Origin: Bacteroidales bacterium
GTDB taxonomy: Bacteria; Bacteroidota; Bacteroidia; Bacteroidales; WCHB1-69
Direction of reading: 5' to 3'
DNA: 45,714 bases
Assembly (NCBI GenBank): GCA_017962275.1
Contig: JAGCVQ010000046.1
Span: 1-45,714, forward strand
This document shows positions 405 to 42,451 of the stretch, one piece after another; positions within the stretch are counted from its first letter, which is position 1; each line of letters begins with the position of its first letter. Position numbers and translations under genes: made by a program. The notes below the pieces were generated by a model. That model did not search any database. It worked only from the letters and a program-made list of their open reading frames with translations, and was not told the DNA's origin.

Positions 405-1802
405 CTACACCATCGGGTTCGTGTGTTTCAATTCCACCACGATCTGCGGGTATTTCTCCCGCAAATGCGCGGCGGCACGTTCGGCAAAATAGACCGAGCG
501 ATGCTGGGCGCCCGTGCAGCCGAAATTGACCGTCAAATGCGTGAATTTGCGCTCCAAGTAATTGTCCACCGACATGTCGATCAGCGCACAGACGTGATTC
601 ACAAAGGTTTCCACCTCCTGATATTGCTCTAAATACGCTTTCACGCAGTCGTCCTTGCCGGTGAAGGTGGCGTATCTTTTCTCCCGTCCGGGGTTGGGCA
701 GGGCGCGGCAGTCGAACACGAAACCGCCGCCGTTTCCGGAAGGATCCTCCGGAACCCCTTTCTTGAACGAGAAACTCTGCACCGTGACCGTCAGCACATC
801 CGGATTTAGCTTGGCGGGCTCCACATAGCTGTCCACCACGGTCTGCAGCACGTGCCTCAGCTCGGGCAGGTTGGCCGGTAACGCATTCTGTTGCAGCAGA
901 TAACGTATGTTGCGGATGGCATACGGGACGCTCTGCAGGAAGTGCGCCTTCCGCTCGAAATAGCCGCGGTAACCGTACGCGCCCATCGCCTGCATGATGC
1001 GGATGAGCGAGAAAGCGTTGAAATAGGCCTTGAACTGTGCGCGGTCCACCGGAATATGCTGCTCCAAATTGTCCAAATAGCCATCCAACAGCTCTTCGCG
1101 GATTTCGGGCGAGAGGTCAGCCTTGGCATCATACAGCAACGAGGCGATGTCATACTGCAACGCCCCCTTTCTACCGCCTTGATAATCAATGAACCAGACC
1201 TCATCCTGATTCACCATGATGTTCCGCGACTGGAAATCGCGGTAGAGGAAATAGTCGGCGGCGGCAGAGAGCAGATAGTCCATAAACCGCTGATAATCAT
1301 CCTCTAACAGCTGCTCGTTGAAGGGGATATTCACCATCTTCAGGTAGTAGTACTTGAAATAGTTGAGGTCCCACTGCATCGACTGGCGGTCGAAGGCGGC
1401 GCGAGGGTACGCCACCGACATGTCCAACCCCTGCTTGGCGGTCATCTGGAACTTGGGCAATGCGGCCACCACCTTCCGGTAATAACCCATCACTTCTTGG
1501 AAATCACCGTCGTTCTGACGCACCTCGCACAGCTTGTCGTACAAGGTTTGCGTCCCGAGGTCGTTCAAAAGATAGTGTTTTTCGTCCTCGTGAACGGCAA
1601 TCAATGTAGGGACGTTCAACCCTTTCCCGGCGAAGAAGCGGGTGTATTCGAAAAAGGCACGGTTTTCCGTAACATCGTCATTATAAGCACCTATCAGCGT
1701 GCTATTGTCGCCAAAGGTAAAGCGATAGTAGCGTCGATGCGAGCCAGACTGCGCCAAAGGGACGCAGGAGGTGGGATTTTGGGCGGCGTTCGCCGTGGCC
1801 AT
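405..1802 (-). CDS. Sugar-kinase-like (APH fold) protein fused to a RapZ C-terminal domain
   Basis: The protein is about 465 residues from the ATG at 1802. Residues 1 to about 320 form an aminoglycoside-phosphotransferase/AmgK-like kinase: YRFTFGDNSTLIGAYN near the N-terminus, a catalytic-loop motif YRDFQSRNIMV near 188, and metal-binding FIDYQGGRKGALQYDIASL. Residues from about 331 to the end match the C-terminal domain of RapZ (VQSFSFKKGVP, FDCRALPNPG, then FGCTGAQHRSVYFAE). In E. coli that part of RapZ binds glucosamine-6-phosphate and RNA. Here it replaces the usual P-loop N-terminus with an amino-sugar-type kinase. A role in cell-wall amino-sugar recycling or sensing is inferred. The frame remains open to an ATG at 1907, but those extra 35 codons run through a structured intergenic element that is repeated elsewhere, so 1802 is preferred. 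The gene follows rodA. Confidence 0.8.
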   Translation of the reverse strand: MATANAAQNPTSCVPLAQSGSHRRYYRFTFGDNSTLIGAYNDDVTENRAFFEYTRFFAGKGLNVPTLIAVHEDEKHYLLNDLGTQTLYDKLCEVRQNDGDFQEVMGYYRKVVAALPKFQMTAKQGLDMSVAYPRAAFDRQSMQWDLNYFKYYYLKMVNIPFNEQLLEDDYQRFMDYLLSAAADYFLYRDFQSRNIMVNQDEVWFIDYQGGRKGALQYDIASLLYDAKADLSPEIREELLDGYLDNLEQHIPVDRAQFKAYFNAFSLIRIMQAMGAYGYRGYFERKAHFLQSVPYAIRNIRYLLQQNALPANLPELRHVLQTVVDSYVEPAKLNPDVLTVTVQSFSFKKGVPEDPSGNGGGFVFDCRALPNPGREKRYATFTGKDDCVKAYLEQYQEVETFVNHVCALIDMSVDNYLERKFTHLTVNFGCTGAQHRSVYFAERAAAHLREKYPQIVVELKHTNPMV

Positions 1803-1824: not shown

Positions 1825-1896
1825 CCCCACACTGCGCTTCGCTTGTGTGGGGTTATTTGCGCTTCGCGCGTGTTGCCTCTTCGAGGCTGCTCAAGG
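1825..1896 (-). promoter_or_regulatory. Tandem-hairpin leader element, copy 1
   Basis: Read on the minus strand it starts with CCTTGAGCAG and then forms GCCTC-GAA-GAGGC, GCGC-GAA-GCGC and CCCCACAC...GTGTGGGG, the last holding a small inner GC-GAA-GC. It ends 22 nt before the ATG at 1802. The copies at 36483 and 40936 have the same order of parts, with base changes on both sides of the stems. There is no T-run, so it is not a plain terminator. Function unknown; a cis-acting RNA leader or a mobile repeat are both possible. Confidence 0.7.
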
Positions 1897-1946
1897 AAAT
1901 TTTTCATATATATGGTTCTTCGACCGTTATCTAATTATCTGATACT

Positions 1947-6043: not shown

Positions 6044-6121
6044 GGTTATATGGTTACACGGTTATAGGGTTACATGGTTACACGGTTACATGGTTATAGG
6101 GTTATAGGGTTATAGGGTTAG
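6044..6121. repeat. Octamer array, unit GGTTAYAN
   Basis: Nine consecutive 8-bp units (GGTTATAT, GGTTACAC, GGTTATAG, GGTTACAT and so on) run from 6044 to 6115, with a partial tenth. The array carries the stop codon of the cyclo-ligase gene (6110-6112) and codes its last residues. The same unit recurs at 35728. Confidence 0.85.
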
Positions 6122-6640: not shown

Positions 6641-6703
6641 GTTTCAGGTTTCAGGTTTCAAGTTTCAGGTTTCAGGATTCAAGATTCAAGATTCAGGACT
6701 AAC
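6641..6703. repeat. Heptamer array, units GTTTCAG / GATTCAA
   Basis: Eight 7-bp units in strict phase from 6641 (GTTTCAG, GTTTCAG, GTTTCAA, GTTTCAG, GTTTCAG, GATTCAA, GATTCAA, GATTCAG), then a decayed ninth. It fills the gap between the stop of the AtpI-like gene (6710) and the start of the cyclo-ligase (6634). The same units appear in the array at 44343. Confidence 0.85.
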
Positions 6704-11137: not shown

Positions 11138-11234
11138 AGGAGCTTCGGCATTCTTGCCGAAAATTTTAGGAGATTCGGCATTCCTGCCGAAAGTCGTTAA
11201 TGTCGTTCTGTGGCATTCCTGCCGCACCTCCTAT
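11138..11234. repeat. 97-bp REP module, left copy
   Basis: Bounded by AGGAG and CTCCTAT, with three hairpins: TTCGGC-ATTCTT-GCCGAA, TTCGGC-ATTCCT-GCCGAA and a third built on GGCATTCCTGCC. The copy at 12234-12330 has the same length and the same order of parts, with scattered base changes. Together they bracket the RAYT gene. Confidence 0.85.
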
Positions 11235-11238
11235 TTTA

Positions 11239-11479
11239 ATGTGACAGGAATGCTGCGGTCCCTATTTAATGCGGCAGGAATGCCGCGGCTCATGTTTTAA
11301 TGCGGCAAGAATGCCGCGGCTCATGTTTTAATGCGGCAAGAATGCCGCGGCTCATGTTTTAATGCGGCAGGAATGCTGCGGCTCATGTTTTAATGCGGCA
11401 GGAATGCCGCGGCTCATGTTTTAATGCGGCAGGAATGCCGCGGTTCATGTTTTAATGCGGCAGGAATGCCGCACCTCCT
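11239..11479. repeat. REP array, eight units of about 31 bp
   Basis: Units begin at 11239, 11269, 11300, 11331, 11362, 11393, 11424 and 11455. After the first step of 30 bp the spacing is exactly 31 bp. Each carries the imperfect palindrome GCGGCAGGAATGCCGC (or an AAGAATG variant) followed by GGCTCATGTTTTAA or a similar linker. The last unit overlaps the 3' end of the RAYT gene. It is not a CRISPR because the linkers are constant and there are no unique spacers. Together with the left 97-bp module this accounts for nearly all of the 359 bp between ribE and the RAYT. Confidence 0.9.
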
Positions 11480-12144
11480 AAAGTGTATTCGTCAGTATTT
11501 AAGTACTGTGGATTGTTTTGAATATAGGTTATGTAGTGCAGGAAGTTGTTGAAATTTCTCACCATGCGGTCGAATATACCCGATTGCCAAATAGTGCCCT
11601 TTTGACCCAGAACCTTGTTGATAGAATGTGCGGAAAAGCCCTTCACTCTGGAAAATACGGTCGTGACATTATGTCCGTTCATGGGTGTGAGTAATACGTG
11701 AACATGGTTGGGCATAATGACATAGCAATGGAGGATATAGCGTTTCCCGTCATAGAATAGAAGAGCATCCTCTACAATTTTCCTTATATCGGGTCTTTTA
11801 AGAATGCAACTACCGTATCCCGCATCTATCCATCTGTCACACTTTACGAGAATGTTATGATCGTATTCTTCTTGTACCTCTTGGCTCCAGGGGTAAGGGT
11901 GTGCTTTCATCCATTCCTGTTTGTATGCTTTCAGTTCCTCAATTTTCGACTGTGGGATTGAATCTGCCAAACGGAATGTGACAAATTGCGTTTTACCGTC
12001 CTGATGCCAATGCGGCAGATTTGTCCCCCAAATGTTGACATATTTGTTTTTTTCGAGGAATTGATAGGGTCTTTGGCATTCTTGCCGAAGCCCGTTAGCG
12101 TCATTTTGCGACAAGAATGCCGCGGTTTTAAGTTTTGTCTTCAT
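11452..12144 (-). CDS. REP-associated tyrosine transposase (RAYT, Y1/HUH family)
   Basis: 230 residues. The conserved start region QFVTFRLADSIPQ leads to the HUH metal-binding motif in YVIMPNHVHVLL and a C-terminal helix with the probable catalytic tyrosine in HYITYIQNNP. RAYTs are domesticated single-strand transposases related to IS200/IS605. They are encoded singly and process or spread REP hairpins. Here the REP sequence is part of the gene: the last eight residues (GGAAFLPH) are read from a REP palindrome, and residues about 7 to 26 run through two diverged REP hairpins. Modules of 97 bp lie on both sides. The gene looks intact. Confidence 0.92.
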   Translation of the reverse strand: MKTKLKTAAFLSQNDANGLRQECQRPYQFLEKNKYVNIWGTNLPHWHQDGKTQFVTFRLADSIPQSKIEELKAYKQEWMKAHPYPWSQEVQEEYDHNILVKCDRWIDAGYGSCILKRPDIRKIVEDALLFYDGKRYILHCYVIMPNHVHVLLTPMNGHNVTTVFSRVKGFSAHSINKVLGQKGTIWQSGIFDRMVRNFNNFLHYITYIQNNPQYLNTDEYTLGGAAFLPH

Positions 12145-24731: not shown

Positions 24732-27700
24732 ATGATGAGGAGAATATTGGTCATATTATGGATGTTGTGCTTCGGGATGCTCTCCGCGCAGACCTACCAG
24801 ATAGGGGATGTCTATACTGCGCCGGATGGCAGCCAGGGCATCGTCTATTATCTCCATCCCGACGGCAGCGGCGGTTGGGTAGTGGCCTTGACCGATGCCT
24901 CCACGTCGTGCAAGTGGGGTGACATTTCCGATGTGCCGGGACTTGCCAATCAAGACCCTTCTCAACTTCAAAACCTGTTGTACGACACGGCAGGGTATGC
25001 GAATACGCAGGCGTTGCGCAACTATCAGAACAACAATGCGACTTACGCGGCCGGAGTGGTGGATTTCGCTCACGGATGGGTGCTTCCTTCGCCGGCGCAG
25101 CTCTCAATGTTGTTTGCGCAACTGCCCTTCATCACCTCCGCCCTCCTCGAAGCGGGTGGTACGGAAATGACGATAAATCAGTATTGGTGCAGCGCCGAGA
25201 AGAATGAATCAAGCGCTTGGGTAATCCATTACAACCAAGGTGCTTTTAACACTGCCACCAAAACGACTTTGCACAGTGTCCGCGCCGTGCGAAGCTTCAC
25301 CTACGAGCCGACTTACCTTTGGAGCACCGGCGACACGACGGCCACTCTCTCTGTCACGCCGGAGCAGACCACGGCATATACCGTGACCGTCACCACGTCG
25401 TCGGGATGCAGCGAAACGGCATCGCAGTTGGTGACGGTGCTCAACAGCGAACCGGTAGCGGATACCGTCTATCTTTGTCACGATTCCATCGCCGTGCTGA
25501 CCTCCCGCGAGGCCGACGCTTACCTTTGGAGCACCGGCGCCACCACGCAGTCGATTTCTGTCACCTCTTCGGGCTCCTATTTGGTGACCGCTTCTTTCTC
25601 CACGGGATGCCCTGTGGTGGACACGTTCAAAGTCATCACCGTCAAGGTGAACACCGTTTCCGAAATTGACCTTCCCGACATGTGTGCCGGCGAAAGCTAT
25701 TCCATCTCCGTCGGCTATGTCTTTTCCTGCAACCTGATTTTCCAGACGCACGAGACCATTCTGGCCTTGAACGACACCGTGTTCCTGCCCGACGGGGCCA
25801 ATTGCGACCCGTATGGTTGTTCCTACCGTTCGCCGTTGCATTTCGCCGGATATGACGATGACGCCATCGTGAGCGACGTGAATGACATACGGTATGTGAG
25901 ACTGAACCTCGAACATTCCTTTGCCGGGGACATTTATATCAATTTGACTTGTCCTAACGGCCAGAAAGCGGATATTTTGAAATGGGGTGATTATCAACAA
26001 GGATACGGAAACACGGATTGCTCCTCCCTTATTTCCAATGATTCAAAAGGATGGCAGAGTGATACCGGTGATGTCCATAATGCAGCTCAGGGCACGGATT
26101 TCGGATTGCCCTATAAACCCAATGATTTCGGATATCCTTGTGACGCCACTCGTCCCAATAATGCGCCGGGAACAGGGTGGAACTATTGTTGGTCCAACAA
26201 CACGTCGGAAGGGTACACGTACGCAGGCGGCACCGGCAGTTTGATATACCGGGAATGCAACGCCATTCCCAATCTCGATGCGACACCCACGTATTATTGG
26301 TCGGTTCCTGTCTATCCCAATTCCTTTGATTCCTCCAATGTCGCGGCTGGAACGCAGTTCTATCATCCTGACGAGTCTTTTGAAAGTCTGATTGGATGTC
26401 CGTTGAATGGCGATTGGTTCATCGAGGTGATGGACGGCGCGAATGTGGATAACGGCTACATTTTCGGGTGGGAGCTGGCTTTGGCGGAGGATATTCCGGA
26501 AGTGGTGTATGCGGATGTGGTGCAGACGACTGTCGAGGGGCCGTGGGTGACCTCGACCAGCGACTCTTCCTTTGTGTTTATGCCGCCCGCCGATCTGCCC
26601 TATGATACGTTGGTTCAATATACTTTCCACTGTTTCAACGAGTACGGTTGCGGTTTCGACACGGTGGTGAGCATTTGGTACTATGCCCGCCAATACACTA
26701 CCATCGACACTTCCGTCTGCAGCAGCTTTGTCTGGAACGGGGTCACTTATACCGCAGACACAACCATTACCGACACGCTGGCGACCATCCATGGCTGCGA
26801 CAGCCTGGTGACGGTTCACTTGCACTTCACCGAGATCCCGACCGTCACCATCACGGGTCCTCACTTTATGTGCGCCGACTCTTCCGTTGTCCTTGCCGCC
26901 AGCAATGCGCAGTCCTATCTTTGGAACACCGGCGACACCACCCAGACCATTCTGGTGAGTGAGCCCGGGGTTTATACCGTGACGGCCACCTTCGCGGGCG
27001 GTTGTTCTTCCGAATCGACTGGATACCAAGTATATGTATCGGAGAATCCCATTATCGACGCGCATCTTTCCGACATGATTGCCGGCGACACCCAGACGGT
27101 GGTCATCGGCACTTTGGTTGGCGATAACCTGCAATACATCCACCCGCAGTCCACGCTCACTTACTCGAACGTCACCTTCCTGCCCGACGGGGTGCCGTGT
27201 GAACCTCTCGGTTGTTCCTACAAGGCGGAGATGGTCTTTTCCGGTTTTCCCGACACGGCGGTTATCCATTCGGCTGATGACATCCGCTATATCCGCCTGA
27301 AGATGGAGCATTCCGCCCCCATCGACCTCTACATCAACTTGACTTGTCCGAACGGGCAGCAGGCCGATATTCTGAAAAAATACAATGGGAACAGCATATC
27401 TTCCTGTTTGAGTTCCATAGGCACTTCGCATTATGGTTGGCCAAGCGGAAATGTCAATGCCGTCTATTACGCTCAATATCCGAATGTGAAAATATGGATG
27501 GGACAACCGAATGTTTCCACACTCTATAACAACTTCGATTATCCTTGTGATTCTTCGAAAAACAAACCCGGGGTCGGATGGAACTATTGTTGGTCGGACA
27601 ATACCACCGAAGGCTATCAGTATGCTTCTTCCAATGGGTGTCTCGTGGCTCCGAGCAACGCCCTCTTGTATTACAGCGGAGGTATAGAGACCCTGTCTCA

Positions 27701-30700
27701 TTTGAACAAGGTCATCATTGATTCTTCCAACGTGGCCGAGGGCTCGCAATTTTACCATCCCGATGAGTCGTTTGACAGTCTGATAGGATGTCCGGTGAAC
27801 GGCACCTGGACTGTTGAGGTGATAGACGGGATTACCATTGACAACGGCTATATTTTCGAGAGCGAGTTAGGGGTGTCGGAACGACTCAACGGCAACCACT
27901 ATGTTTCGATAGCGCAGACATTTTTTGATTCCCTGTGGGTCACGCCGATCAACGATTCGGTCTATATCATCACGCCGCCTGACACGCTGGCCAACGACAC
28001 CGTCGTAGCCTACACGTTCACTTTGGTTGACGAGAACGGATGTATCTTTGACACCGTGGTTTATATCACAGTATATGCACACAGGCATACGGTGCTGTAC
28101 GATACGATTTGTCTGGGCGACACCCTTGATTTCAACGGTCAACTGCTTACAGCGGCGGGGGACTATTATGACACGATACCCACCGTGATAGGTTACGACA
28201 GTACCGTGACCTTGCATTTGGCCATCCGGGAGATGTTGGAGGTGAGCGTGTCTTCCTCCGTGGACACGACCTGTGCGGGAAGTCCCGTCACCTTGCAGGC
28301 AAGCGCTCCCGACAATCTGATAGCCTACATTTGGAGCACGGGAGACACCACCGCGTCCATTGTCGTGACACCGGAACAACTCTCAACCTATTCGGTGACC
28401 GCCACTTCCGCCTATCAATGCACGGGTACCGGCTCGAAGACCATCGCCATAGGGGAAATCTTCCCCATGAGCACATCGGTAATCCTTTGCGATGGCGCCT
28501 CCGACACTCTCACCGCCCGTGAGGGGACGGTTTATTATTGGAGTACCGGCGACACTACCCGGTCGATTCTTGTTTCGGAGGTGAATCTCTACACCGTGAC
28601 GGTCTCGTCCTCCACCTCGTGTCAGGTGGTGGACACGTTCAAGGTGAGTTCCATGCAGGTCAATGGGATTCCGCCCATCCAATTCCCGGAGATGTGCGCC
28701 GGCGGCAGTTATTCTATCGTGGTGGGACATGAGGCCGTCGCCACGCAGACCTTCGTCACCCACGAGACTGACCTTACGGTTCACGACACGGTGTTCCTGC
28801 CCGACGGGGTCTATTGCGAACCCCACGGCTGTTTCTACCAAGCTCCTTTGGTCTTTTCCGGTTATGCGGACACGGCCCACGTGAACAGTGCCAATGATAT
28901 CCGTTTTCTGAGATTGAATATGGAACACTCCTATGGCAGCGATCTCTACATCAACCTGACCTGTCCCAACGGGCAGAAAGCGGATGTTTTGAGATGGGGA
29001 ACCTTCAGTGCCTCCCTGCATTCGGATTGCAGCGACAGCATCCCGATTACTTCACGCGGGTGGCAATCGGGAGGAACCAACACTTCGTCTGGCTCCCGTT
29101 TTGGGCTGCCGTACCATACTTACAGTTCTTCCAACGACCCGTGTGATCCCACCCAACCCGAAAACGTGCCTGGTGTGGGATGGAACTACTGTTGGTCGAA
29201 CAACGACCAGTACTCCTACGCGGGAGGGGCCGGCAGTTTGATTTATCGGAATGTGAACGCCCATTATGCCGTCCAGAGTTATAAATCTTTCGATTCCTCT
29301 TTTGTGGCTTCGGGCTCGAATTTCTATCATCCGGACGACTCGTTTGACAGTTTGGTCGGATGTCCGTTGAACGGTCTTTGGTATATTGAAGTGGTTGACG
29401 GGGTGCAGGGCGACAACGGCTATATCTTCGAGTGGGAATTGGCGTTGGTAGAGGATTTCCAGACGGTGGAATTTACGGATACGGTGCAGGTTGAGGTGGA
29501 AGGCCTTTGGGTGACGGCCACTTCCGATTCCTCGTTCCTCTTCTCGCCGCCTGCCGATCTTTCCCACGACACCGTGGTCAACTATATCTTCCACTGTTAC
29601 AACGCTTACGGTTGCAGTTACGACACCGTTGTGAGTGTCACGTACTACGCTCGCAATGCCGTCACCATGAACATCATTGCGTGTGATTCCCTCGTCTGGG
29701 GCGGCGTCACTTACCATGCGGACACCACCTTTGCCGATACCCTGCAGAATATTCACGGCTGCGACAGTGTCGTGACGGTGCATCTGCAGGTGGTTCACAC
29801 TTCCCCTGTGACAATCAGCGGGCCGCAGTCCATCTGTGCTGGCGGGTCCGTCACGCTAACTGCCCATGCCGAGATAGAGCCGTTGTATTACCATTGGAGC
29901 ACAGGGAGCACTTCGCCGACGATTACCGTCAGCAATCCGGGGAGCTATTCCGTCACGGCCGTTTATTCGAACGGCTGTCATACGGAATCTGCGGTTTTCC
30001 ATCTTCATACGGCGCATAACCCCGCTCTTGATGCCCATCTCTCCAACATGATGGCCGGTGACACGCAAAATCTGTCCCTCACTATCCTGGATAGCGCCAG
30101 CATTGACATCATGTTGCTGCAAGGTCCTTGGGTGGGTGTGCTGCTGGATACCACTTTTTTCGTCAACCCGCCTGTCACGCTGGAGAACGATACGGTGGTG
30201 TCCTACACGTTCACTTTGGTCGATACGAATATATGTGTCTTTGACACGGTGATTTACATCACGATTTATGCGCATCGACATATAGAACTCTTTGATACGG
30301 TGGACAATTCCGAGCTGCCTTACGAGTGGAACGGGGTGGTCTTCACGCAGGCGGGTTGTCAGGACACGCTGCTATATACCACGCACGGCGCCGACAGTTT
30401 GGTCTCGATGCATCTTTCTGTCATATACCATTATGACACTGCTGTTTGCGAGAACCAGATTCCGCTGTATTGGCACGGTCAAACGTTCATCAGCACCTCT
30501 TCCGTCACCATTTCCCATCCTTTGGATTGTGCGGAAAACATTGAGGTGATTACGGTGTCGGTGCACTCGGTTTTCCATGACACGACCGCGTTGACCCTCT
30601 GCGCCAATGAGCTCCCGTATCTATGGCATAATCAAGAAATTGACAGCACCGGAATATATTACGATTCGCTCACTACCTCTTTCCACTGCGACAGCATCTA

Positions 30701-33700
30701 TATGTTGGTGTTCACTGTCACAGACACCACCTTCACCGAACTTTATGACACGGTGCTGCAAAACGACCTGCCCTATGCATTGAATGACGAGAGTTACGAT
30801 ACGACCGGCGTGTATGTGCAGCATCGGGAGAATGCTGCCGGTTGTGACAGCACCATCACGCTCCATCTGACCGTGTTCTACAATGTGCGGACGGAGTTGG
30901 ACAGCACTGTCTGTGACACGCTGTTGCCGGTGGTATGGAACGGCATTCCGTTCATGGCGACGGGTGTTGATTCTGTGGTGTATGAGGCCGCTAACGGCGC
31001 CGACAGCACCGTGGTGATGCACATGACCGTGAACAATTCGACCAACGAGACGGTGGTGATCAGCATTGTGGAGAACGATCTTCCCTATGTTGTCAACGAG
31101 GTCACATACGATTCCGCCGGCTCTTACGTGCAGCATCTGACCAACGCCGCTGGATGCGACAGTATGCTGACAATCCATCTGTTGGTGGCAAGCAACACCA
31201 TCACTTACCGCTATACGCTGATTTGTCAGGATCATCTGCCGGCTACTTGGGAGGGACACGATTGGACCGCCGCCGGGGTTGTCATTGACACGTTTACGGC
31301 CGTCTCCGGCGCGGACAGCATTGTGGTGAAGACCTTGGAAGTGGGTTTGCCCACCACAAGTGACCTTTACGACACCATTTTGCAGAATAATCTCCCCTAT
31401 GTTCTGAACGACAGCAGTTATTTTGCCACGGGTGAATATGTCCAGCATCGGATCAACGCTGCCGGTTGCGACAGCGCCATCACGCTTCACCTGACCGTTT
31501 TGCTCAATGTGCGGACGGAATTGGATACCACCGTTTGCGACAGTCTGTTGCCGGTTCTCTGGAACGAAATCACGTTCACGGAGGCGGGAGTGGATTCGAT
31601 GACCTATATTGCCGCTAACGGGGTGGACAGTGTCGTGGTGATGACGGTTACAGTCAACGCATCATCGGATAGCACGTTGATAGTAAGCGAAATAGAAAAC
31701 GAACTTCCCTATACGGTGAATGGTTTTGCCTATGATTCCACGGGAGTTTATGTGCAGCATCTCGACAATGCATTGGGATGTGACAGCACACTCACCATCG
31801 CGCTGACAGTGCTGCATAATGTGCGGACGGAAATCGATAGTGCGGTGTGTGACAGTCTGTTGCCGATCGTATGGAACGGTGTGGAATTTGCCGGAGCGGG
31901 TACGGATTCCGTCACGGTGATTGCCTCCACGGGGGTGGACAGCACTGTGGTGATGACCCTAACGGTGAATTATCCGACGGCCGGGACCTTTGCGGACACC
32001 GTGCTGGAGAACGACCTGCCGTCGTATCAGCTGAACGGGTTCCATTATGACACAGCGGGCACTTACATCCAGCATCTGACCAACGTGAACGGTTGTGACA
32101 GTGTGTTGACGTTACAACTGACTGTCCTCTATAATGTTACATCCGAAGTCGATTCCACCGTTTGCCCGAATGAGCTGCCCTTTACGTGGAACGGCAAAGT
32201 GTTTACGACTGTCGGGACACAGACGGCTATGCTGACTGCCGCCAACGGGGTGGACAGCATCGTGACTATGACGTTGCATCTATCGCCGAGTCCGAATGCC
32301 CACATCACTGGTCCGGAAGTGCTGTGTGCCGACAATTTTGCGGTGCTTGTTGCCGATAGCGCCACCTCTTACTTGTGGAGTACTGGCGATACCACTCAGA
32401 CTACAAATGTCTATACTATCGGTGTTTACAGTCTGACGGTCACGAACGAGTATGGCTGTATCGCTACCGACTCCTTGCCTTTGACTGAATCCGTTACCGT
32501 GAACCCCATCGAATACTTCCAGTTTCCAGACCTTTGTGCCGGCAACGACTTTTCCATCACAGTTGGTCACCAGAGTACATGCACCATCGTTTTGGAAAAT
32601 CCCGTATCGACGCTTTCTTGGGCTGATACCGTTTTCCTGCCCGACGGGGTCTATTGTTCGCCTTACGGTTGTTCCTATCAGTCACCGCTCACGTTCACGG
32701 ATTTCGCGCCTGGATCGACGGTGAGTTCCGTCAATGACATTCTGTACGTTCGTCTCAACATGGAGCATTCCTATGCGAGCGACGTTTATATCAACTTGAC
32801 TTGTCCAAATGGGCAGAAGGCTGATATTCTGAAATTTAAAGGTCACAGTAGTAGTACTTTTGATGGACCGTGCATGTCTGAAATCCCGCTGACATCCAGA
32901 AATTGGCAAAACGGGAACAACGCAAGCGGCAGCACCTTCTTCGGTATGGCTTACGACCATTCTTCACAGGGAAATAATGCTTGTAATCCCAATACCTACG
33001 ATAATGCTCCTGGAATAGGGTGGAATTACTGCTGGTCTAACAACAATGACCAAGGTTATACCTACGCCCCGGGTCAGGGCAGTCTGGTTTACAGAGCGGT
33101 CAATGCCCATGAACATACCAATCCTTATTATACTTTTTGGAATGGCGAAGCACATTATGTGGACATCTTTGATTCCTCCAATGTGGCGGCAGGAACGCAG
33201 TTTTATCATCCGGACCAGTCATTCCAAAGTCTGATTGGGTGTCCGTTGAACGGCTCTTGGTATATCGAGGTCATTGACGGGACGAATGATGATAACGGTT
33301 ACATCTTCGAATGGGAGCTGGCGTTGGCTCCGTATCTGGTCCCCACCTCATTTTCAGATGTGACACTCGTTACGGTGGACGGTCCATGGGTGACCACCGT
33401 CAGCGATACGTCATTCCTTTTCTCGCCGCCCGACACGCTCGAACACGATACGGTGGTAGCTTATACCTTCCACTTACAAGACCAATATGGTTGCGGCTAC
33501 GATACCACGGTCTATCTTAATGTTTATATGCAGAGTAATACGGTCTTCGACACCACCGTTTGCGGCAGTTTTGTGTGGAATGGGACGACCTACACGCAGA
33601 GTCAGGAAATCACGTGGAATGGGGTCAACGTGCATGGTTGTGACAGCACGGTGGCCATCAATCTGACGGTGTATCCCATACCGACAACGACTATCTCAGG

Positions 33701-35723
33701 TCTGCCTGTTCCTTGCGTTGATGATACCGCGCATCTTACTGCCGTTTGTGCCGATACTGCCGCCCTTCTCGTCTGGAGTACCGGCGACACGGCGCAAACC
33801 ATTACGGTAACCTCATCGGGCGACTATGGTGTCACAGCTACAAACCCAAAATGCAGCTACGACGCAACGGTCTCTGTCGAGTTCACCAGTCCGACCTATT
33901 CAACGGTTGAGGACACCGTTTGTGACAGTCTCCTTTGGAACGGAACCCTCTACACCCAAACGGGCGTCTATATGGACACGCTGACAAACAGTGTTGGTTG
34001 CGATAGTGTTATAACACTCAATTTGACAGTACTTTACAGCTCTATTACATACGACACATTGCTTCTGATGCAGAACCAGCTGCCGTATTATTTCGCGCCG
34101 TCGGATACCATTTTCCCGGTCGGGTCGCCAGCGGAATTCCAGTTCAGTTACGCTGTTCCCGCCCAAAACGGTTGCGACTCCACCGTCACGGAGAAGGTGT
34201 ACGTCTATATGAACTATACGCAGTCCTTTGACACGACGGTTTGCGCCAATGCGGTTCCGTTGCTGTGGCACGGGCATACGTTCGCGGCTTCGGGCACGGT
34301 GACCGATTCGCTGCAAACGGTACACGGCAGCGACAGTGTGCTGACCTATACGGTGACGGTCGATGCACTGAATGCGACCGTCGGCAACATTACCCATATC
34401 AACTGCTACGGCGAGAGTACCGGTGCGGCCACGGCCACGGTCACCGGTGGAATTTCCCCGCTGACCTACCAATGGACGAACAGTGCGGGTGCCTCTGTCT
34501 CCACCACGACGCAGATCAGCAACCGCCCGGCCGGAAACTACACGTTCTCCGTTACGGATGCGATTGGATGTTCGGCCTCCGCCACGGTGACGCTCAATAC
34601 GCTTCACGGGCCGATGTCGCCCGGAACCATCTCCGGTTCGCAGACGCTCTGTTTTGGCGACACGATGGGCACGGTCAACGGTACGGCGGCCACCGGCGAC
34701 GATTGCGTTTACCAATGGCAGATCTCCTCCGACGGCAACGCGTGGGGCCCGGCTTCCAGCACGAACAACACCCAGAATTACACGCTTCTCACGCCTGTCA
34801 CGAGCGACTTCCAGTTGCGTCGCGCCTGGATCAGCGGAAGCTGCGGCACGCTCTATAGTGACACGCTGACCATCGCGGTCGGACCGATCAGCAGCGACAC
34901 CATCTACGATGAGGTTTGCCAGGGACAACCCTATCAACAGAACGGATTCGACATTTCCGAAACGGAGACGGTGGGGTTAGACGTCCTCACTTCGGTAAGA
35001 AACTACACCAATGCCCAGGGTTGCGACAGTGTGGTGACGTTGGTGCTGACCATCCACGAGCCGCAAGAGATGAGTTATAGCGTCGAGATTTGCGAAGGTG
35101 ACGGCTACTACGCAAATGGGTTCACGATATTGCCGACCGAGACCGTGGGTGCGGACACGTTGCTGCGTGTCTTGAACCTGCAAACGGCCGACGGTTGTGA
35201 CAGTATCATACGGTTGGAAGCCACTGTCATCGACACGATGTTGCGGATTCAAAACCTCACCCCCGACTTCTGCGAGGACATGCAGGCCGAACTGGTGGTG
35301 GTGACGAACATGACGGACTACGAATGGAGCACGGGCGAGCAGATGCCCAACATCACAGTGACGGTTCCCGGCGCGTATATGGTGACGGCCTCGCAAGGAG
35401 GATGCAGTGTCACCGCGAGATATGTCATAGAACCCTGTATTTTCGAACTATACCTGCCCAATGCGATCACGCCCGGTCGCGCAGAGGGCCTCAACGACTA
35501 CTTCTGTATTTCGGAACATGCGCAAGGAATGATCAACTTGTTTGAAATCAGCATCTTCAACCGCTGGGGTGAGTTGGTGTTTTATTCCACCGACAAAGGT
35601 TTCCGATGGAACGGCGAGGTGAAAGGTCAGATTTACCACCAGAATGTCTATAACTATGTCATCAACTATACCGACAGTGCGGGAAGACCGTATCACGTGG
35701 TAGGCAGTATTACCGTGTTGTAG
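24732..35723 (+). CDS. Giant modular surface protein with T9SS type B sorting domain
   Basis: 3663 residues. Signal peptide RRILVILWMLCFGMLSAQ, then an Lcl/DUF1566-like domain (about 20-188). Four copies of a P-domain-like beta module follow at about 316-583, 782-1045, 1320-1572 and 2602-2863. Each has an HS...INLTCPNGQ strand, GWNYCWSNN and IGCPLNG.W.IEV.DG..DNGYIF. Each is preceded by an Ig-like YLWSTGDTTQ unit and followed by a DTVV.YTF domain. Around 1847-2520 are about five copies of a 104-residue repeat pair (DLPY.LN...YDTTG.Y, then VCDSLLPVVWNG). Near 3216-3288 is a SprB-like repeat (INCYGESTGAATATVTGG). Residues 3570-3663 form the type B sorting domain (YLPNAITPGRAEGLNDYF, IFNRWGELVF, WNG). 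Probably a surface adhesin exported by T9SS. It is last in the operon. Confidence 0.85.
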   Translation: MMRRILVILWMLCFGMLSAQTYQIGDVYTAPDGSQGIVYYLHPDGSGGWVVALTDASTSCKWGDISDVPGLANQDPSQLQNLLYDTAGYANTQALRNYQNNNATYAAGVVDFAHGWVLPSPAQLSMLFAQLPFITSALLEAGGTEMTINQYWCSAEKNESSAWVIHYNQGAFNTATKTTLHSVRAVRSFTYEPTYLWSTGDTTATLSVTPEQTTAYTVTVTTSSGCSETASQLVTVLNSEPVADTVYLCHDSIAVLTSREADAYLWSTGATTQSISVTSSGSYLVTASFSTGCPVVDTFKVITVKVNTVSEIDLPDMCAGESYSISVGYVFSCNLIFQTHETILALNDTVFLPDGANCDPYGCSYRSPLHFAGYDDDAIVSDVNDIRYVRLNLEHSFAGDIYINLTCPNGQKADILKWGDYQQGYGNTDCSSLISNDSKGWQSDTGDVHNAAQGTDFGLPYKPNDFGYPCDATRPNNAPGTGWNYCWSNNTSEGYTYAGGTGSLIYRECNAIPNLDATPTYYWSVPVYPNSFDSSNVAAGTQFYHPDESFESLIGCPLNGDWFIEVMDGANVDNGYIFGWELALAEDIPEVVYADVVQTTVEGPWVTSTSDSSFVFMPPADLPYDTLVQYTFHCFNEYGCGFDTVVSIWYYARQYTTIDTSVCSSFVWNGVTYTADTTITDTLATIHGCDSLVTVHLHFTEIPTVTITGPHFMCADSSVVLAASNAQSYLWNTGDTTQTILVSEPGVYTVTATFAGGCSSESTGYQVYVSENPIIDAHLSDMIAGDTQTVVIGTLVGDNLQYIHPQSTLTYSNVTFLPDGVPCEPLGCSYKAEMVFSGFPDTAVIHSADDIRYIRLKMEHSAPIDLYINLTCPNGQQADILKKYNGNSISSCLSSIGTSHYGWPSGNVNAVYYAQYPNVKIWMGQPNVSTLYNNFDYPCDSSKNKPGVGWNYCWSDNTTEGYQYASSNGCLVAPSNALLYYSGGIETLSHLNKVIIDSSNVAEGSQFYHPDESFDSLIGCPVNGTWTVEVIDGITIDNGYIFESELGVSERLNGNHYVSIAQTFFDSLWVTPINDSVYIITPPDTLANDTVVAYTFTLVDENGCIFDTVVYITVYAHRHTVLYDTICLGDTLDFNGQLLTAAGDYYDTIPTVIGYDSTVTLHLAIREMLEVSVSSSVDTTCAGSPVTLQASAPDNLIAYIWSTGDTTASIVVTPEQLSTYSVTATSAYQCTGTGSKTIAIGEIFPMSTSVILCDGASDTLTAREGTVYYWSTGDTTRSILVSEVNLYTVTVSSSTSCQVVDTFKVSSMQVNGIPPIQFPEMCAGGSYSIVVGHEAVATQTFVTHETDLTVHDTVFLPDGVYCEPHGCFYQAPLVFSGYADTAHVNSANDIRFLRLNMEHSYGSDLYINLTCPNGQKADVLRWGTFSASLHSDCSDSIPITSRGWQSGGTNTSSGSRFGLPYHTYSSSNDPCDPTQPENVPGVGWNYCWSNNDQYSYAGGAGSLIYRNVNAHYAVQSYKSFDSSFVASGSNFYHPDDSFDSLVGCPLNGLWYIEVVDGVQGDNGYIFEWELALVEDFQTVEFTDTVQVEVEGLWVTATSDSSFLFSPPADLSHDTVVNYIFHCYNAYGCSYDTVVSVTYYARNAVTMNIIACDSLVWGGVTYHADTTFADTLQNIHGCDSVVTVHLQVVHTSPVTISGPQSICAGGSVTLTAHAEIEPLYYHWSTGSTSPTITVSNPGSYSVTAVYSNGCHTESAVFHLHTAHNPALDAHLSNMMAGDTQNLSLTILDSASIDIMLLQGPWVGVLLDTTFFVNPPVTLENDTVVSYTFTLVDTNICVFDTVIYITIYAHRHIELFDTVDNSELPYEWNGVVFTQAGCQDTLLYTTHGADSLVSMHLSVIYHYDTAVCENQIPLYWHGQTFISTSSVTISHPLDCAENIEVITVSVHSVFHDTTALTLCANELPYLWHNQEIDSTGIYYDSLTTSFHCDSIYMLVFTVTDTTFTELYDTVLQNDLPYALNDESYDTTGVYVQHRENAAGCDSTITLHLTVFYNVRTELDSTVCDTLLPVVWNGIPFMATGVDSVVYEAANGADSTVVMHMTVNNSTNETVVISIVENDLPYVVNEVTYDSAGSYVQHLTNAAGCDSMLTIHLLVASNTITYRYTLICQDHLPATWEGHDWTAAGVVIDTFTAVSGADSIVVKTLEVGLPTTSDLYDTILQNNLPYVLNDSSYFATGEYVQHRINAAGCDSAITLHLTVLLNVRTELDTTVCDSLLPVLWNEITFTEAGVDSMTYIAANGVDSVVVMTVTVNASSDSTLIVSEIENELPYTVNGFAYDSTGVYVQHLDNALGCDSTLTIALTVLHNVRTEIDSAVCDSLLPIVWNGVEFAGAGTDSVTVIASTGVDSTVVMTLTVNYPTAGTFADTVLENDLPSYQLNGFHYDTAGTYIQHLTNVNGCDSVLTLQLTVLYNVTSEVDSTVCPNELPFTWNGKVFTTVGTQTAMLTAANGVDSIVTMTLHLSPSPNAHITGPEVLCADNFAVLVADSATSYLWSTGDTTQTTNVYTIGVYSLTVTNEYGCIATDSLPLTESVTVNPIEYFQFPDLCAGNDFSITVGHQSTCTIVLENPVSTLSWADTVFLPDGVYCSPYGCSYQSPLTFTDFAPGSTVSSVNDILYVRLNMEHSYASDVYINLTCPNGQKADILKFKGHSSSTFDGPCMSEIPLTSRNWQNGNNASGSTFFGMAYDHSSQGNNACNPNTYDNAPGIGWNYCWSNNNDQGYTYAPGQGSLVYRAVNAHEHTNPYYTFWNGEAHYVDIFDSSNVAAGTQFYHPDQSFQSLIGCPLNGSWYIEVIDGTNDDNGYIFEWELALAPYLVPTSFSDVTLVTVDGPWVTTVSDTSFLFSPPDTLEHDTVVAYTFHLQDQYGCGYDTTVYLNVYMQSNTVFDTTVCGSFVWNGTTYTQSQEITWNGVNVHGCDSTVAINLTVYPIPTTTISGLPVPCVDDTAHLTAVCADTAALLVWSTGDTAQTITVTSSGDYGVTATNPKCSYDATVSVEFTSPTYSTVEDTVCDSLLWNGTLYTQTGVYMDTLTNSVGCDSVITLNLTVLYSSITYDTLLLMQNQLPYYFAPSDTIFPVGSPAEFQFSYAVPAQNGCDSTVTEKVYVYMNYTQSFDTTVCANAVPLLWHGHTFAASGTVTDSLQTVHGSDSVLTYTVTVDALNATVGNITHINCYGESTGAATATVTGGISPLTYQWTNSAGASVSTTTQISNRPAGNYTFSVTDAIGCSASATVTLNTLHGPMSPGTISGSQTLCFGDTMGTVNGTAATGDDCVYQWQISSDGNAWGPASSTNNTQNYTLLTPVTSDFQLRRAWISGSCGTLYSDTLTIAVGPISSDTIYDEVCQGQPYQQNGFDISETETVGLDVLTSVRNYTNAQGCDSVVTLVLTIHEPQEMSYSVEICEGDGYYANGFTILPTETVGADTLLRVLNLQTADGCDSIIRLEATVIDTMLRIQNLTPDFCEDMQAELVVVTNMTDYEWSTGEQMPNITVTVPGAYMVTASQGGCSVTARYVIEPCIFELYLPNAITPGRAEGLNDYFCISEHAQGMINLFEISIFNRWGELVFYSTDKGFRWNGEVKGQIYHQNVYNYVINYTDSAGRPYHVVGSITVL

Positions 35724-35727
35724 AGGG

Positions 35728-35775
35728 GGTTACACGGTTACATGGTTACATGGTTACACGGTTAGAGGGTTAAGG
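35728..35775. repeat. Octamer array, unit GGTTACAN, between convergent genes
   Basis: Six 8-bp units in phase (GGTTACAC, GGTTACAT twice, GGTTACAC, GGTTAGAG, GGTTAAGG). It starts 5 bp after the giant gene's stop and runs into the ispD C-terminus, encoding LTL and the stop. The unit is the same as at 6044. Confidence 0.85.
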
Positions 35776-36466
35776 TTTTTTCGAGGAGGGTGGTGTCGCT
35801 GGGGTAGGTGAGTTTCATGTTGGAGACGTCGCCGGGGACGATGAAGATGGGCACTTCGGGGCAATAGCGGAGAAGCACGCCGCAGTCATCGGTGCTGGTG
35901 AAATCCTTGTCTTTTAATGCTTTACGATAGGCTTCGCGGATGATGTCAATGTGGAAAGCCTGCGGGGTCTGGGCGCAGCGCAAACGCTTGCGGGCGGGAA
36001 TGGCCGTGATGAAGTTGCCGTCGTCCGTCACCTCGAAAACCGTGTCTGTGGCAGGTATGGCCACCGCTACCGCCGGATGGGTTTGCAATGCCGTAACCGT
36101 TTCATTGATAATTCTTTGGCTTACCGCCGGACGGGCCGCATCGTGGAAGATGAGGTTGAGGTCCGAACGCCCTTCGTAGGCATTAAGGGCGGCTAACGTG
36201 GAGAGATACCGTTCTGCGCCGCCGGGCAGGAGCTTGCGCACCTTCTGCCAGCCGTTACGATCGATAATCGCTTGCATCTGAGGCAGATAGTCGGGATGCA
36301 TCACCACCGCAATCTCATCGATGGCATCGCACTTTTCAAACGCCCCGACACTGTATTCAATGACGGTTTTGCCCGCCAGCGGCAGGAACTGCTTGGGCAG
36401 CGCGGACCCGAATCGTTGGCCGCTGCCGCCAGCTAATATTACGGCTATGTTTTGTTGTTTCATCAT
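35762..36466 (-). CDS. ispD: 2-C-methyl-D-erythritol 4-phosphate cytidylyltransferase
   Basis: 234 residues from the ATG at 36466. The CTP-binding start AVILAGGSGQRFGSALPKQFLPLAGK and the conserved FHDAARPAVS are clear; RLRCAQTPQAFHIDII and DCGVLL support the call. It transfers CMP to MEP in the non-mevalonate isoprenoid pathway, feeding undecaprenyl and quinone synthesis. The frame is open to 36535 only because it reads through hairpin element copy 2, so that start is rejected. The last residues are encoded by the octamer array. Confidence 0.95.
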   Translation of the reverse strand: MMKQQNIAVILAGGSGQRFGSALPKQFLPLAGKTVIEYSVGAFEKCDAIDEIAVVMHPDYLPQMQAIIDRNGWQKVRKLLPGGAERYLSTLAALNAYEGRSDLNLIFHDAARPAVSQRIINETVTALQTHPAVAVAIPATDTVFEVTDDGNFITAIPARKRLRCAQTPQAFHIDIIREAYRKALKDKDFTSTDDCGVLLRYCPEVPIFIVPGDVSNMKLTYPSDTTLLEKTLTL

Positions 36467-36482: not shown

Positions 36483-36560
36483 CCCCACATTGCGCTCCTT
36501 CGTCGCTTATGTGGGGTTAATTGCACTCCGTGCATTTTGTCCCTTCGGGACTGCTCAAGG
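36483..36560 (-). promoter_or_regulatory. Tandem-hairpin leader element, copy 2
   Basis: On the minus strand: CCTTGAGCAG, GTCCC-GAA-GGGAC, TGCAC-GGA-GTGCA, then CCCCACAT...ATGTGGGG. It ends 16 nt before the ispD ATG. Stems 1 and 3 differ from copy 1 by changes that keep pairing. Confidence 0.7.
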
Positions 36561-36583
36561 AATTATATTATGAAAAAAACGCA

Positions 36584-36625
36584 CGTCCTACGTCCTACGT
36601 CTTACGTCTCACGTCTTACGTCTTT
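36584..36625. repeat. Heptamer array, unit CGTCYTA
   Basis: Six 7-bp units in phase (CGTCCTA twice, CGTCTTA, CGTCTCA, CGTCTTA, CGTCTTT), ending in the stop codon of the YitT gene (36624). It lies about 23 bp upstream of hairpin element copy 2. Confidence 0.85.
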
Positions 36626-39640: not shown

Positions 39641-39683
39641 GGCGTATGCGATACGTTTGTGGACGTATGCGATACGTCCCTAC
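39641..39683. repeat. Tandem palindromes GGACGTAT-GCG-ATACGTCC
   Basis: The hairpin at 39661-39679 is perfect and runs into CCTAC. A decayed neighbour at about 39641-39656 keeps CGTATGCGATACG. On the minus strand the GTAG arm supplies the TAG stop codon of the adaptor gene (39680-39682). The arms (GTAGGGACG) belong to the same style as at 12378 and 18914. Confidence 0.8.
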
Positions 39684-40915
39684 CGGGTTTTGCGTTGGGG
39701 CGGGCCCATTTTGAAGGGGGAACCGCCTTCATCCGAACCTTTGACCGGCATTCCCTCCATGGCCTCGCTGACATTGACGACCACCTCTTCGCCTTCGCGC
39801 AAACCTTCGGTTATCAGGGTGTTGACACCGTTGTTCAGGCCCACGGTCACACGGATTTGCTCGTAGGCGTTGTCCCCTCTCTTCACCCAAACGGTCTTTT
39901 TCGTCACATCTTTCAGCCCTTGGGTCAGCTCTTCCTGGTTTTTATACAGCGATTTGAAGGTAAAACCTTTTTTCTCCAACAGCTTCATCGATTCAGGTTC
40001 TATCGAGGCGAAAAGCGCCGTCATCGGGATGCAGACACCGCTCTCTTTCTTGGTGGTGATGGTCACGCTGGCGGTCATGCCCGGGAAGAGCTTGCTTTCC
40101 GGGTTGGGCGCGTCGATGATGACGGTGTAGGTCACCACGTTGGCGGTCACCGTCGGGTTGATGCGGACCTCCTTGACGGTGCCGGTGAAGACGTCGTCGG
40201 GGAAGGCATCGACGGTGAAGATGACGGGTTGTCCGGCCTTCACTTCGCCGATGTCGGCCTCATCCACCTTTGCCTCCACCTGCATCTTGGTCAGGTCGTT
40301 GGCGATGGTGAACAGCGTGGGCGTGTTGAAGGAGGCCGCCACCGTTTGTCCCTCCTCCACGGCCTTGTTCATGACAACGCCGTCGATGGGCGAATAGATG
40401 GTGGCGTAGGAGAGGTTCGTCTGCGCGCGCGACAGTTCGGATTGGGCGGTTTTGAGCTGGTTCTTGGCCAGGTTCAGCGAGTTGACCGCCGATTCGTAAG
40501 CTTCCAGCGTGGCCGCTTTGTTGTCGTATAGCACCTTGATGCGGTCGTACTGCTGTTGGGCCAACGTCAGGTTGCTTTGCGCGTTCGACACGCTGGCCTG
40601 GGCCGTTTTCAGCTGTTCGTTGAGGTTGGAGCGGTCGAGCTCGGCCAGCAACTGCCCCTTCTTCACCACGGAGTTGAAATCCACGTAGATGCGCTCCACA
40701 ATACCGGACACCTGCGTACCGACGTCCACTTTATAGACGGGCTGAAGCTCGCCGGTGGCGGTCACCGTCACCTCGATGCTGTCAATGCGACTGCGCTCAG
40801 TCATCACCCGCAGCTCACCTTTTTTGCCTTTCTTCAAGGAGAAAATCAGGATCATGGCGAGGATTACCACTGCAATGATGCCTAATATCCACCAGAGTTT
40901 CTTTGATTTTTTCAT
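39680..40915 (-). CDS. HlyD/MacA-type periplasmic adaptor
   Basis: 411 residues. An N-terminal anchor (LWWILGIIAVVILAMILIFSL) is followed by a lipoyl half (QVSGIVERIYVDFNSVVKKGQLLAELD), a long alpha-hairpin (residues about 95-170, rich in Q, A, S and L), the second lipoyl half (YATIYSPIDGVVMNKAVEEGQTV) and beta-barrel domains. The C-terminus is unusual in a Gly/Pro/Lys-rich tail (GGSPFKMGPPQRKTR). It bridges the inner-membrane ABC permease and TolC. Hairpin element copy 3 lies just before the start codon. Confidence 0.93.
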   Translation of the reverse strand: MKKSKKLWWILGIIAVVILAMILIFSLKKGKKGELRVMTERSRIDSIEVTVTATGELQPVYKVDVGTQVSGIVERIYVDFNSVVKKGQLLAELDRSNLNEQLKTAQASVSNAQSNLTLAQQQYDRIKVLYDNKAATLEAYESAVNSLNLAKNQLKTAQSELSRAQTNLSYATIYSPIDGVVMNKAVEEGQTVAASFNTPTLFTIANDLTKMQVEAKVDEADIGEVKAGQPVIFTVDAFPDDVFTGTVKEVRINPTVTANVVTYTVIIDAPNPESKLFPGMTASVTITTKKESGVCIPMTALFASIEPESMKLLEKKGFTFKSLYKNQEELTQGLKDVTKKTVWVKRGDNAYEQIRVTVGLNNGVNTLITEGLREGEEVVVNVSEAMEGMPVKGSDEGGSPFKMGPPQRKTR

Positions 40916-40935: not shown

Positions 40936-41000
40936 CCCCACACTGCGGCTTCGCCTTGTATGGGGTTATTAAAATGTTGTCCCTTCGGGACTGCTTAAGG
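40936..41000 (-). promoter_or_regulatory. Tandem-hairpin leader element, copy 3
   Basis: On the minus strand: CCTTAAGCAG, GTCCC-GAA-GGGAC, then CCCCATAC...GTGTGGGG with an inner GGC-GAA-GCC. The middle hairpin of copies 1 and 2 is missing, replaced by AACATTTTAA. It ends 20 nt before the adaptor ATG, inside the exporter operon. Confidence 0.7.
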
Positions 41001-41025
41001 ATTATTTTTCAATATAAATTACTAT

Positions 41026-41053
41026 TTGCCTCTTGCCTCTTGCCTTTTGCCTA
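41026..41053. repeat. Heptamer array, unit TTGCCTC
   Basis: Four 7-bp units (TTGCCTC twice, TTGCCTT, TTGCCTA); the last contains the TolC gene's stop codon (41051-41053). It lies about 25 bp upstream of hairpin element copy 3. Confidence 0.75.
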
Positions 41054-42370: not shown

Positions 42371-42451
42371 ACAGTTTTTAATATAACAGTGTAGCGACTT
42401 GCTTTTTCGCCAAATGTTTAACACACTGAAGAATTTTTTGGTCAAACAAAA

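Follow-up and report, generated by a model that had tools for sequence, protein, structure and literature searches.

A REP-like hairpin repeat that brackets Y1 transposase genes and lies in sense between co-directional genes in Bacteroidales

The three window copies and the family they belong to

Three copies of a short element predicted to fold into tandem hairpins lie in the window (the whole stretch of 45,714 nucleotides analysed here), each just ahead of a start codon, which raises the question of whether they are leader RNAs kept separately at each gene or members of a mobile repeat family. The copies and their neighbouring genes are listed below.

1825..1898, minus strand: element copy 1, made of TTCCTTGAGCAG, hairpin 1 (GCCTC-GAA-GAGGC), hairpin 2 (GCGC-GAA-GCGC), a linker and hairpin 3 (CCCCACAC..GTGTGGGG)
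405..1802, minus strand: gene 3′ of copy 1, with an APH phosphotransferase domain and a RapZ C-terminal domain (Pfam)
36483..36562, minus strand: element copy 2, with three hairpins
35762..36466, minus strand: gene 3′ of copy 2, IspD
40936..41002, minus strand: element copy 3, with hairpins 1 and 3 only, module 2 being absent
39680..40915, minus strand: gene 3′ of copy 3, HlyD-type membrane fusion protein
41051-42445, minus strand: gene upstream of copy 3, outer membrane efflux protein

The window sequence confirmed the minus-strand orientation given by the initial annotation, the full elements being 2 nt longer than described there. Copy 1 lies 22 nt ahead of an ATG of the APH/RapZ-C gene, whose start is taken as the first ATG after the element, copy 2 lies 16 nt ahead of an ATG of ispD, and copy 3 lies 20 nt ahead of the ATG of the HlyD-family gene; this gene and the efflux gene on the other side of the copy appear to form a single efflux operon. 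The three copies are clearly no product of chance: the core pattern AGCAGNCNCGAAGNGNC, a 17-mer, is matched exactly at three places in the window, whereas 100 shuffles give an expectation of 0.00. Folding of the minus-strand RNA gave z values of -3.96, -3.87 and -4.17 for copies 1, 2 and 3, and the plus-strand RNA gave -2.88, -3.25 and -1.38. The element had not been recognised as a named RNA family and this holds, since Rfam returned no family at gathering score in the whole window; a looser scan of the three 3-kb loci (E<=1) gave a sole match, at E 0.44, which fell outside the element.

When the host genome (105 contigs, 2.77 Mb) was searched with a covariance model built from the three copies, as the initial annotation had suggested, at least 149 matches were listed at E<=1; 150 of 221 candidates were scored, and the model E-values are rough. 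At least 103 of the matches exceeded 60 bits, which makes the element a high-copy palindromic intergenic repeat, 67-81 nt long. A 16-mer pattern allowing at most one mismatch gave 109 matches in the same genome versus one for the reversed pattern.

The element was present in 35 of the 36 same-genus genomes searched, with 0 to at least 79 copies listed per genome, and it is rare in the order Bacteroidales outside its genus. No match was obtained in 24 genomes of other families, and a search of 295 genomes from 183 genera under stricter filters yielded two matches, both in a single genome of another family. The one of these that was examined (L369, 35.9 bits) is a variant oriented in sense, with 18 nt between it and a methylmalonyl-CoA mutase gene downstream; the gene on its 5′ side has the small subunit of methylmalonyl-CoA mutase as its best match, below the cut-off of that model. 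Relatives carrying the element are mostly ruminant-gut or uncultured Bacteroidales, among 80 listed of 100 stretches. One element-bearing contig (L207) belongs to an assembly labelled Synergistales, where wrong binning is likely.

Hairpin modules and covariation

The initial annotation had proposed that both sides of stems 1 and 3 change together. This is exact for stem 1, which reads GCCTC/GAGGC in copy 1 and GTCCC/GGGAC in copies 2 and 3. For stem 3 a two-sided change separates copy 1 (CCCCACAC/GTGTGGGG) from copy 2 (CCCCACAT/ATGTGGGG), whereas copy 3 (CCCCATAC/GTGTGGGG) differs by a one-sided U-G wobble.

Covariation was counted on a larger alignment (A3), made with MAFFT without structure from 101 distinct copies of the 103 above 60 bits, two over-long matches being omitted. 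The counts were based on the correct structure and not on the search models R1, in which stem 3 is two columns off, and R2, which contains one wrong extra pair. Analysis of A3 revealed that 96.4% of the cells in 17 pairs are paired, that pairing falls to 32-56% when the partner is shifted by 1-3 columns, and that two-sided changes occur in 100 cells versus 27 in shuffles. The paired changes are thus real, but they track differences between subfamilies and modules. Stem 1 is mostly of the TCCC, CCTC or CCCC type with a few TCTC, module 2 is CGCAC, CGCGC, GCTC or absent, and the interior of hairpin 3 varies in length; in one copy of the host genome (L110) this interior is inverted, and the ispD copy of the relative L304 has CCCAGGGT/ACCCTGGG as stem 3. 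Ahead of hairpin 1, the consensus by eye is TTCCTTRAGCA.

Subfamilies share a conserved fold. The rare changes (at most three copies) of stems 1 and 3 were examined for selection on single copies, and none was found: 8 keep the pair and 14 break it, no significant departure from the 0.235 to 1/3 kept that neutrality predicts, and two of the eight pair-keeping cells are A-U where the consensus is C-G. The covariation claim therefore stands in the large alignment but does not extend to a fold kept copy by copy. Paired columns change slightly less than unpaired ones (P 0.07). On the sense strand, G-U pairs outnumber A-C pairs by 36 to 14, with no matching C>T excess in unpaired columns, but this asymmetry carries little weight because two columns account for 24 of the 36 G-U cells. 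With rare stem changes close to neutral, the covariation fits a fold needed during spread, as for the hairpins of TnpA systems, and kept in the lineages that spread, not visibly in each copy.

Directly 5′ of several host-genome copies, we also observed a nested two-hairpin module of the form CCCC..CCCCTTCT..AGAAGGGG..GCCCGAAGGGC..GGGG (contig and position C52:36688, C22:29780, C82:48578, C46:1859 and C25:29685).

Transposase bracketing and turnover between species

The host genome contains three PF01797 genes. One of them, on contig C72, encodes a Y1 protein of 150 aa with the motifs DHVH and YIMRQKEHH, and carries inverted element variants on both sides. The Y1 partner scores above the cut-off for PF01797 and for the IS200 model (transpos_IS200, 58.3 bits versus a cut-off of 55) and below that of REP_Tyr_transpos (24.1 versus 80). 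Matches at E<=1e-8 were found in 36 of 40 same-genus genomes, with 1-5 per genome; the host genome has two, 100% and 32% identical to the query. Among 30 Y1 proteins, the host's included, the HUH motif is present in 29 and Y---Q--HH in all 30, some distant relatives having NH[VI]H in place of DH[IV]H. Compared within the host genome, the transposase gene lacks the several near-identical copies per genome expected of an IS200/IS605 element.

Bracketing by the element was scored within 350 nt at E<=1e-3 for the best transposase in 30 of the 36 genomes with a match. Among the 20 transposases with at least 54% identity, inward-pointing copies flank the gene on both sides in 10 and at least one side carries a copy in 15; the latter include two with mixed orientation on both sides (L285, L289) and three with a copy on one side only, two of which end near a contig end. 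At this threshold no bracket was detected for 5 of the 20, nor on any side of the 10 more distant transposases. This bracketing is far from chance, because the host genome holds one listed copy per 19-27 kb (149 or 103 in 2.77 Mb). The only close transposase of the host genome itself, that of C72, has divergent variants of the element (28 and 32 bits) on its two sides and is at most a candidate for the enzyme cognate to the main subfamily.

The Y---Q--HH motif corresponds to TnpA subclass 1.2, first characterised in PMC6006769 according to its available text. The Y1 partner shows the signature given in Table 1 of that paper (Y---Q--HH, about 148 aa, DH[IV]H) and is therefore likely to be of the subclass 1.2 type, an assignment made by motif and length rather than by a tree. 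It shares with this subclass a length of about 150 aa, the Y---Q--HH motif, a low copy number and occurrence in Bacteroidetes. The available text describes subclass 1.2 as having no REP and generally lacking terminal IS200 structures, whereas the Y1 genes analysed here are bracketed by variants of a many-copy hairpin element. An orphan TnpA subclass would thereby gain a likely DNA partner.

Two further systems were seen in the host genome. In the window, a RAYT-like protein is encoded at 11452-12144 on the minus strand (PF01797, 26 bits; REP_Tyr_transpos, 56.3 bits, below the cut-off of 80), with a run of 31-bp repeats containing GCGGCAGGAATGCCGC next to it at 11234-11480; the two form a second, separate REP-type system. 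The third Y1 gene, on contig C2, is flanked on both sides by a different hairpin pair of similar layout that points outward (L001 1236-1272 and 1956-2183), a family with six pattern matches in the genome.

Presence at a given gap differs between species, from which we conclude that the element is gained or lost between them. At the HlyD gap, 13 relatives with at least 83% identity comprise five with the element (L333, L334, L337, L340, L341), one with a decayed copy (L345) and seven with none by the model; L336 and L339, which lack it, also differ in upstream context, and L344 has an unrelated hairpin pair in the same spot. None of the 16 fetched relatives below 83% identity carries the element at this gap. 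At the ispD gap it occurs in 6 of 29 fetched relatives, several of the others lacking the same upstream gene. The filler flanking the element also turns over: among the alignments listed, the element is mostly not the only difference between a filled site and an empty one, and neither a clean target-site duplication nor a precise empty site was seen.

The hairpin pair before HlyD in L344 is similar to that of C2. In L189 (2431-2578), two copies stand head to tail with one base between them, and a relative, L155, aligns on both sides of one of these copies while lacking about one copy.

Placement between genes and competing explanations

Placement was determined with codon-based gene calls, which missed the RAYT-like gene at 11452-12144, for the best 111 of 149 listed matches in the host genome and for 124 of 159 in relatives, 6 and 11 of which lacked one of the two neighbours. 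The relatives' loci come from at least 100 stretches found by a pattern scan and chosen for holding an element. A longest-ORF gene call, which placed 68 of 111 copies as sense-tandem, was replaced, as it had apparently picked antisense ORFs, for example at ispD in the window.

Of the 105 host-genome copies with both neighbours, 87 are sense-tandem, 7 antisense-tandem, 7 convergent and 4 divergent. The other assemblies gave 108 sense-tandem copies out of 113, with 1 antisense-tandem, 1 convergent and 3 divergent; these copies are partly orthologous, and counting one vote per homologous downstream gene left 66 of 71 sense-tandem. Copies lie at a median of 33 nt from the next ATG in the host genome and of 39 nt in relatives, where 70 of 116 copies fall within 60 nt, and the spacing to the start codon is typically 15-60 nt. 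Element-free gaps comprise 41 tandem, 11 divergent and 7 convergent in the host genome and 154, 42 and 34 in relatives. Relative to these, the shortage of copies is significant for convergent (P 1e-6) and divergent (P 1.4e-6) gaps in relatives and for divergent gaps in the host genome (P 0.003); the convergent shortage in the host genome is not significant (Fisher P 0.14).

The available text of PMC7366714 gives TAnnTTTG as the Bacteroidetes promoter box. With the element masked, this box occurs in 11 of 173 tandem gaps with an element, 75 of 232 tandem gaps without and 71 of 110 divergent readings. Gaps with an element offer less unmasked sequence in which to find it, but the densities per unmasked kb also differ (0.72 in element tandem, 2.05 in element-free tandem, 3.45 in divergent and 0.78 in convergent gaps), so the contrast does not come only from gap length. 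Element gaps still hold 12 boxes versus 5.2 in shuffles. Given the scarcity of promoter boxes and the co-directional genes, most copies appear to lie inside operons. The initial annotation had looked to a preference for leaders: sense placement upstream of start codons is indeed strong, but the gaps mostly have no promoter box and are not leaders behind promoters, so that "leader" is not quite the right word for these sites.

We consider it probable that a REP-like element is moved here in trans and is either kept at, or targeted to, the borders between cistrons within operons, where it would be transcribed as hairpins. It would be a non-autonomous REP-like repeat of exchangeable hairpin modules, with as its likely partner the single-domain HUH Y1 transposase of the Y---Q--HH type that its variants bracket as inverted repeats. 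By analogy with TnpA and REPs, this enzyme would recognise the hairpins in single-stranded DNA and move copies in trans, and transcription would place each copy, as two or three hairpins, in the interior of a polycistronic mRNA. The placement could reflect selection, only sense copies at cistron boundaries being tolerated or useful, in which case transposition would reset expression ratios within operons; it could also arise if insertion targets the coding strand where transcription of an operon exposes it, in which case transposition would sense transcribed strands. The likeliest effect of the RNA, if any, would be on the processing, stability or independent translation of the two cistrons. 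Shine-Dalgarno use is weak in the phylum of the host. A wider reading, in which a transposase-borne RNA hairpin family settles specifically, and in sense, at cistron boundaries within operons, rewires the relative expression of neighbours through transposition and represents the first REP-like partner for TnpA subclass 1.2, is possible but rather doubtful.

A neutral REP-like mobile repeat found wherever its insertion is harmless is plausible, although not the reading that we favour; the REP-like identity is common to both, so their likelihoods overlap. Convergent gaps should then be among the safest, yet 7 of 105 host-genome copies and 1 of 113 in relatives are found there, and sense prevails over antisense by 87 to 7 and 108 to 1. 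Neutral-looking decay agrees with this explanation, as does the avoidance of divergent gaps by REP families elsewhere, reported in the available text of PMC3733652, but tolerance alone does not seem enough, unless antisense copies stop transcription. A single observation hints at such termination: at copy 2, the antisense strand has two terminator-like matches, in a region totalling 3 versus 5.9 in shuffles. Among the outcomes that would speak against it, the initial annotation had named a match to a known transposable repeat with terminal ends and no preference for leaders; the element is tied to a Y1 transposase and varies in presence at the same gap, and its sense preference before start codons is strong.

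A cis-regulatory leader RNA, riboswitch-like or protein-binding and selected separately at each gene, seems unlikely. Sense orientation, closeness to start codons, covariation, the G-U excess without a C>T counterpart and the slightly slower change of paired columns would all suit it. More than 100 copies, unrelated downstream genes in the cases examined, few promoter boxes, variable presence at the same gap and transposase bracketing would not, nor would rare stem changes with no bias towards keeping pairs and G-U cells largely confined to two columns. We find it very unlikely that the element ends transcription of the upstream gene as an intrinsic terminator and also supplies the downstream gene with a promoter. 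A module of this kind would likewise be of use only where both genes run in the same direction, and an AT-rich stretch does lie 5′ of the element; however, TAnnTTTG occurs in 1 of 111 upstream 60-nt stretches besides the 11 of 173 gaps, no U-rich tail was seen 3′ of hairpin 3 on the sense strand, one copy sits inside the apparent efflux operon, and the L369 variant lies between two methylmalonyl-CoA mutase genes.

Like REPs and REPtrons (TnpA-REP / RAYT, class 2), the element that we take to be moved in trans is a short palindromic high-copy intergenic repeat, inverted around a Y1 HUH transposase gene. It differs in lacking the GT[AG]G foot (by eye, before hairpin 1), in its unit of two or three hairpins, in a partner that looks like TnpA subclass 1.2 and scores under the cut-off of the RAYT model, and in its strict sense placement between co-directional genes. 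REPs of surveyed bacteria occupy mostly unidirectional and convergent gaps, with examples near the 3′ ends of upstream genes, and the available text of that survey (PMC3733652) contains no description of near-exclusion from convergent gaps or of a single orientation; the placement rule of the present element is much stricter than that printed there. The same text describes TIRYT/TIRtrons, tyrosine transposase genes with longer inverted repeats, some double-palindromic and some genome-repeated. By this description they are set apart by a shared GGGGWSAS or by being mutually unrelated, and strict sense placement between co-directional genes, a property of our element, is not reported for them. 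ERIC and Correia/NEMIS are likewise small mobile repeats transcribed as stem-loops beside genes, set apart by terminal inverted repeats and target duplications as described in the available text of PMC2229807, which also notes that orientation matters for the effect of ERIC on transcripts and that RNase III cleavage is proposed for NEMIS RNA. ERIC provides a precedent for an RNA effect that depends on orientation. No description of the present element was found in the openly accessible literature, most subscription papers being outside this scope.

The window also contains tandem arrays of period 7, at about 1940-1976, 36580-36624, 41028-41052 and 6643-6702 in the window, with many different unit sequences; arrays of 8-mers lie at 6044-6113 and 35728-35770. 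Heptamer arrays were considered as a part of the element, being upstream of 43 of 111 copies, and rejected as they are equally common in element-free tandem gaps. Arrays of period 7 (some 8) occur in roughly one in three tandem gaps, whether the element is present or not (32 of 86 and 19 of 51 in the host genome, 29 of 87 and 60 of 181 in relatives), and periods 5, 6, 9 and 10 are nearly absent. The nearest account in print, in the available text of PMC4679880, is a study of the heptamer TAACTGA in Beggiatoaceae and a few Bacteroidetes. Elsewhere in the window, an open frame of 3663 aa with many internal repeats (24732-35723, plus strand) perhaps encodes a large surface protein.
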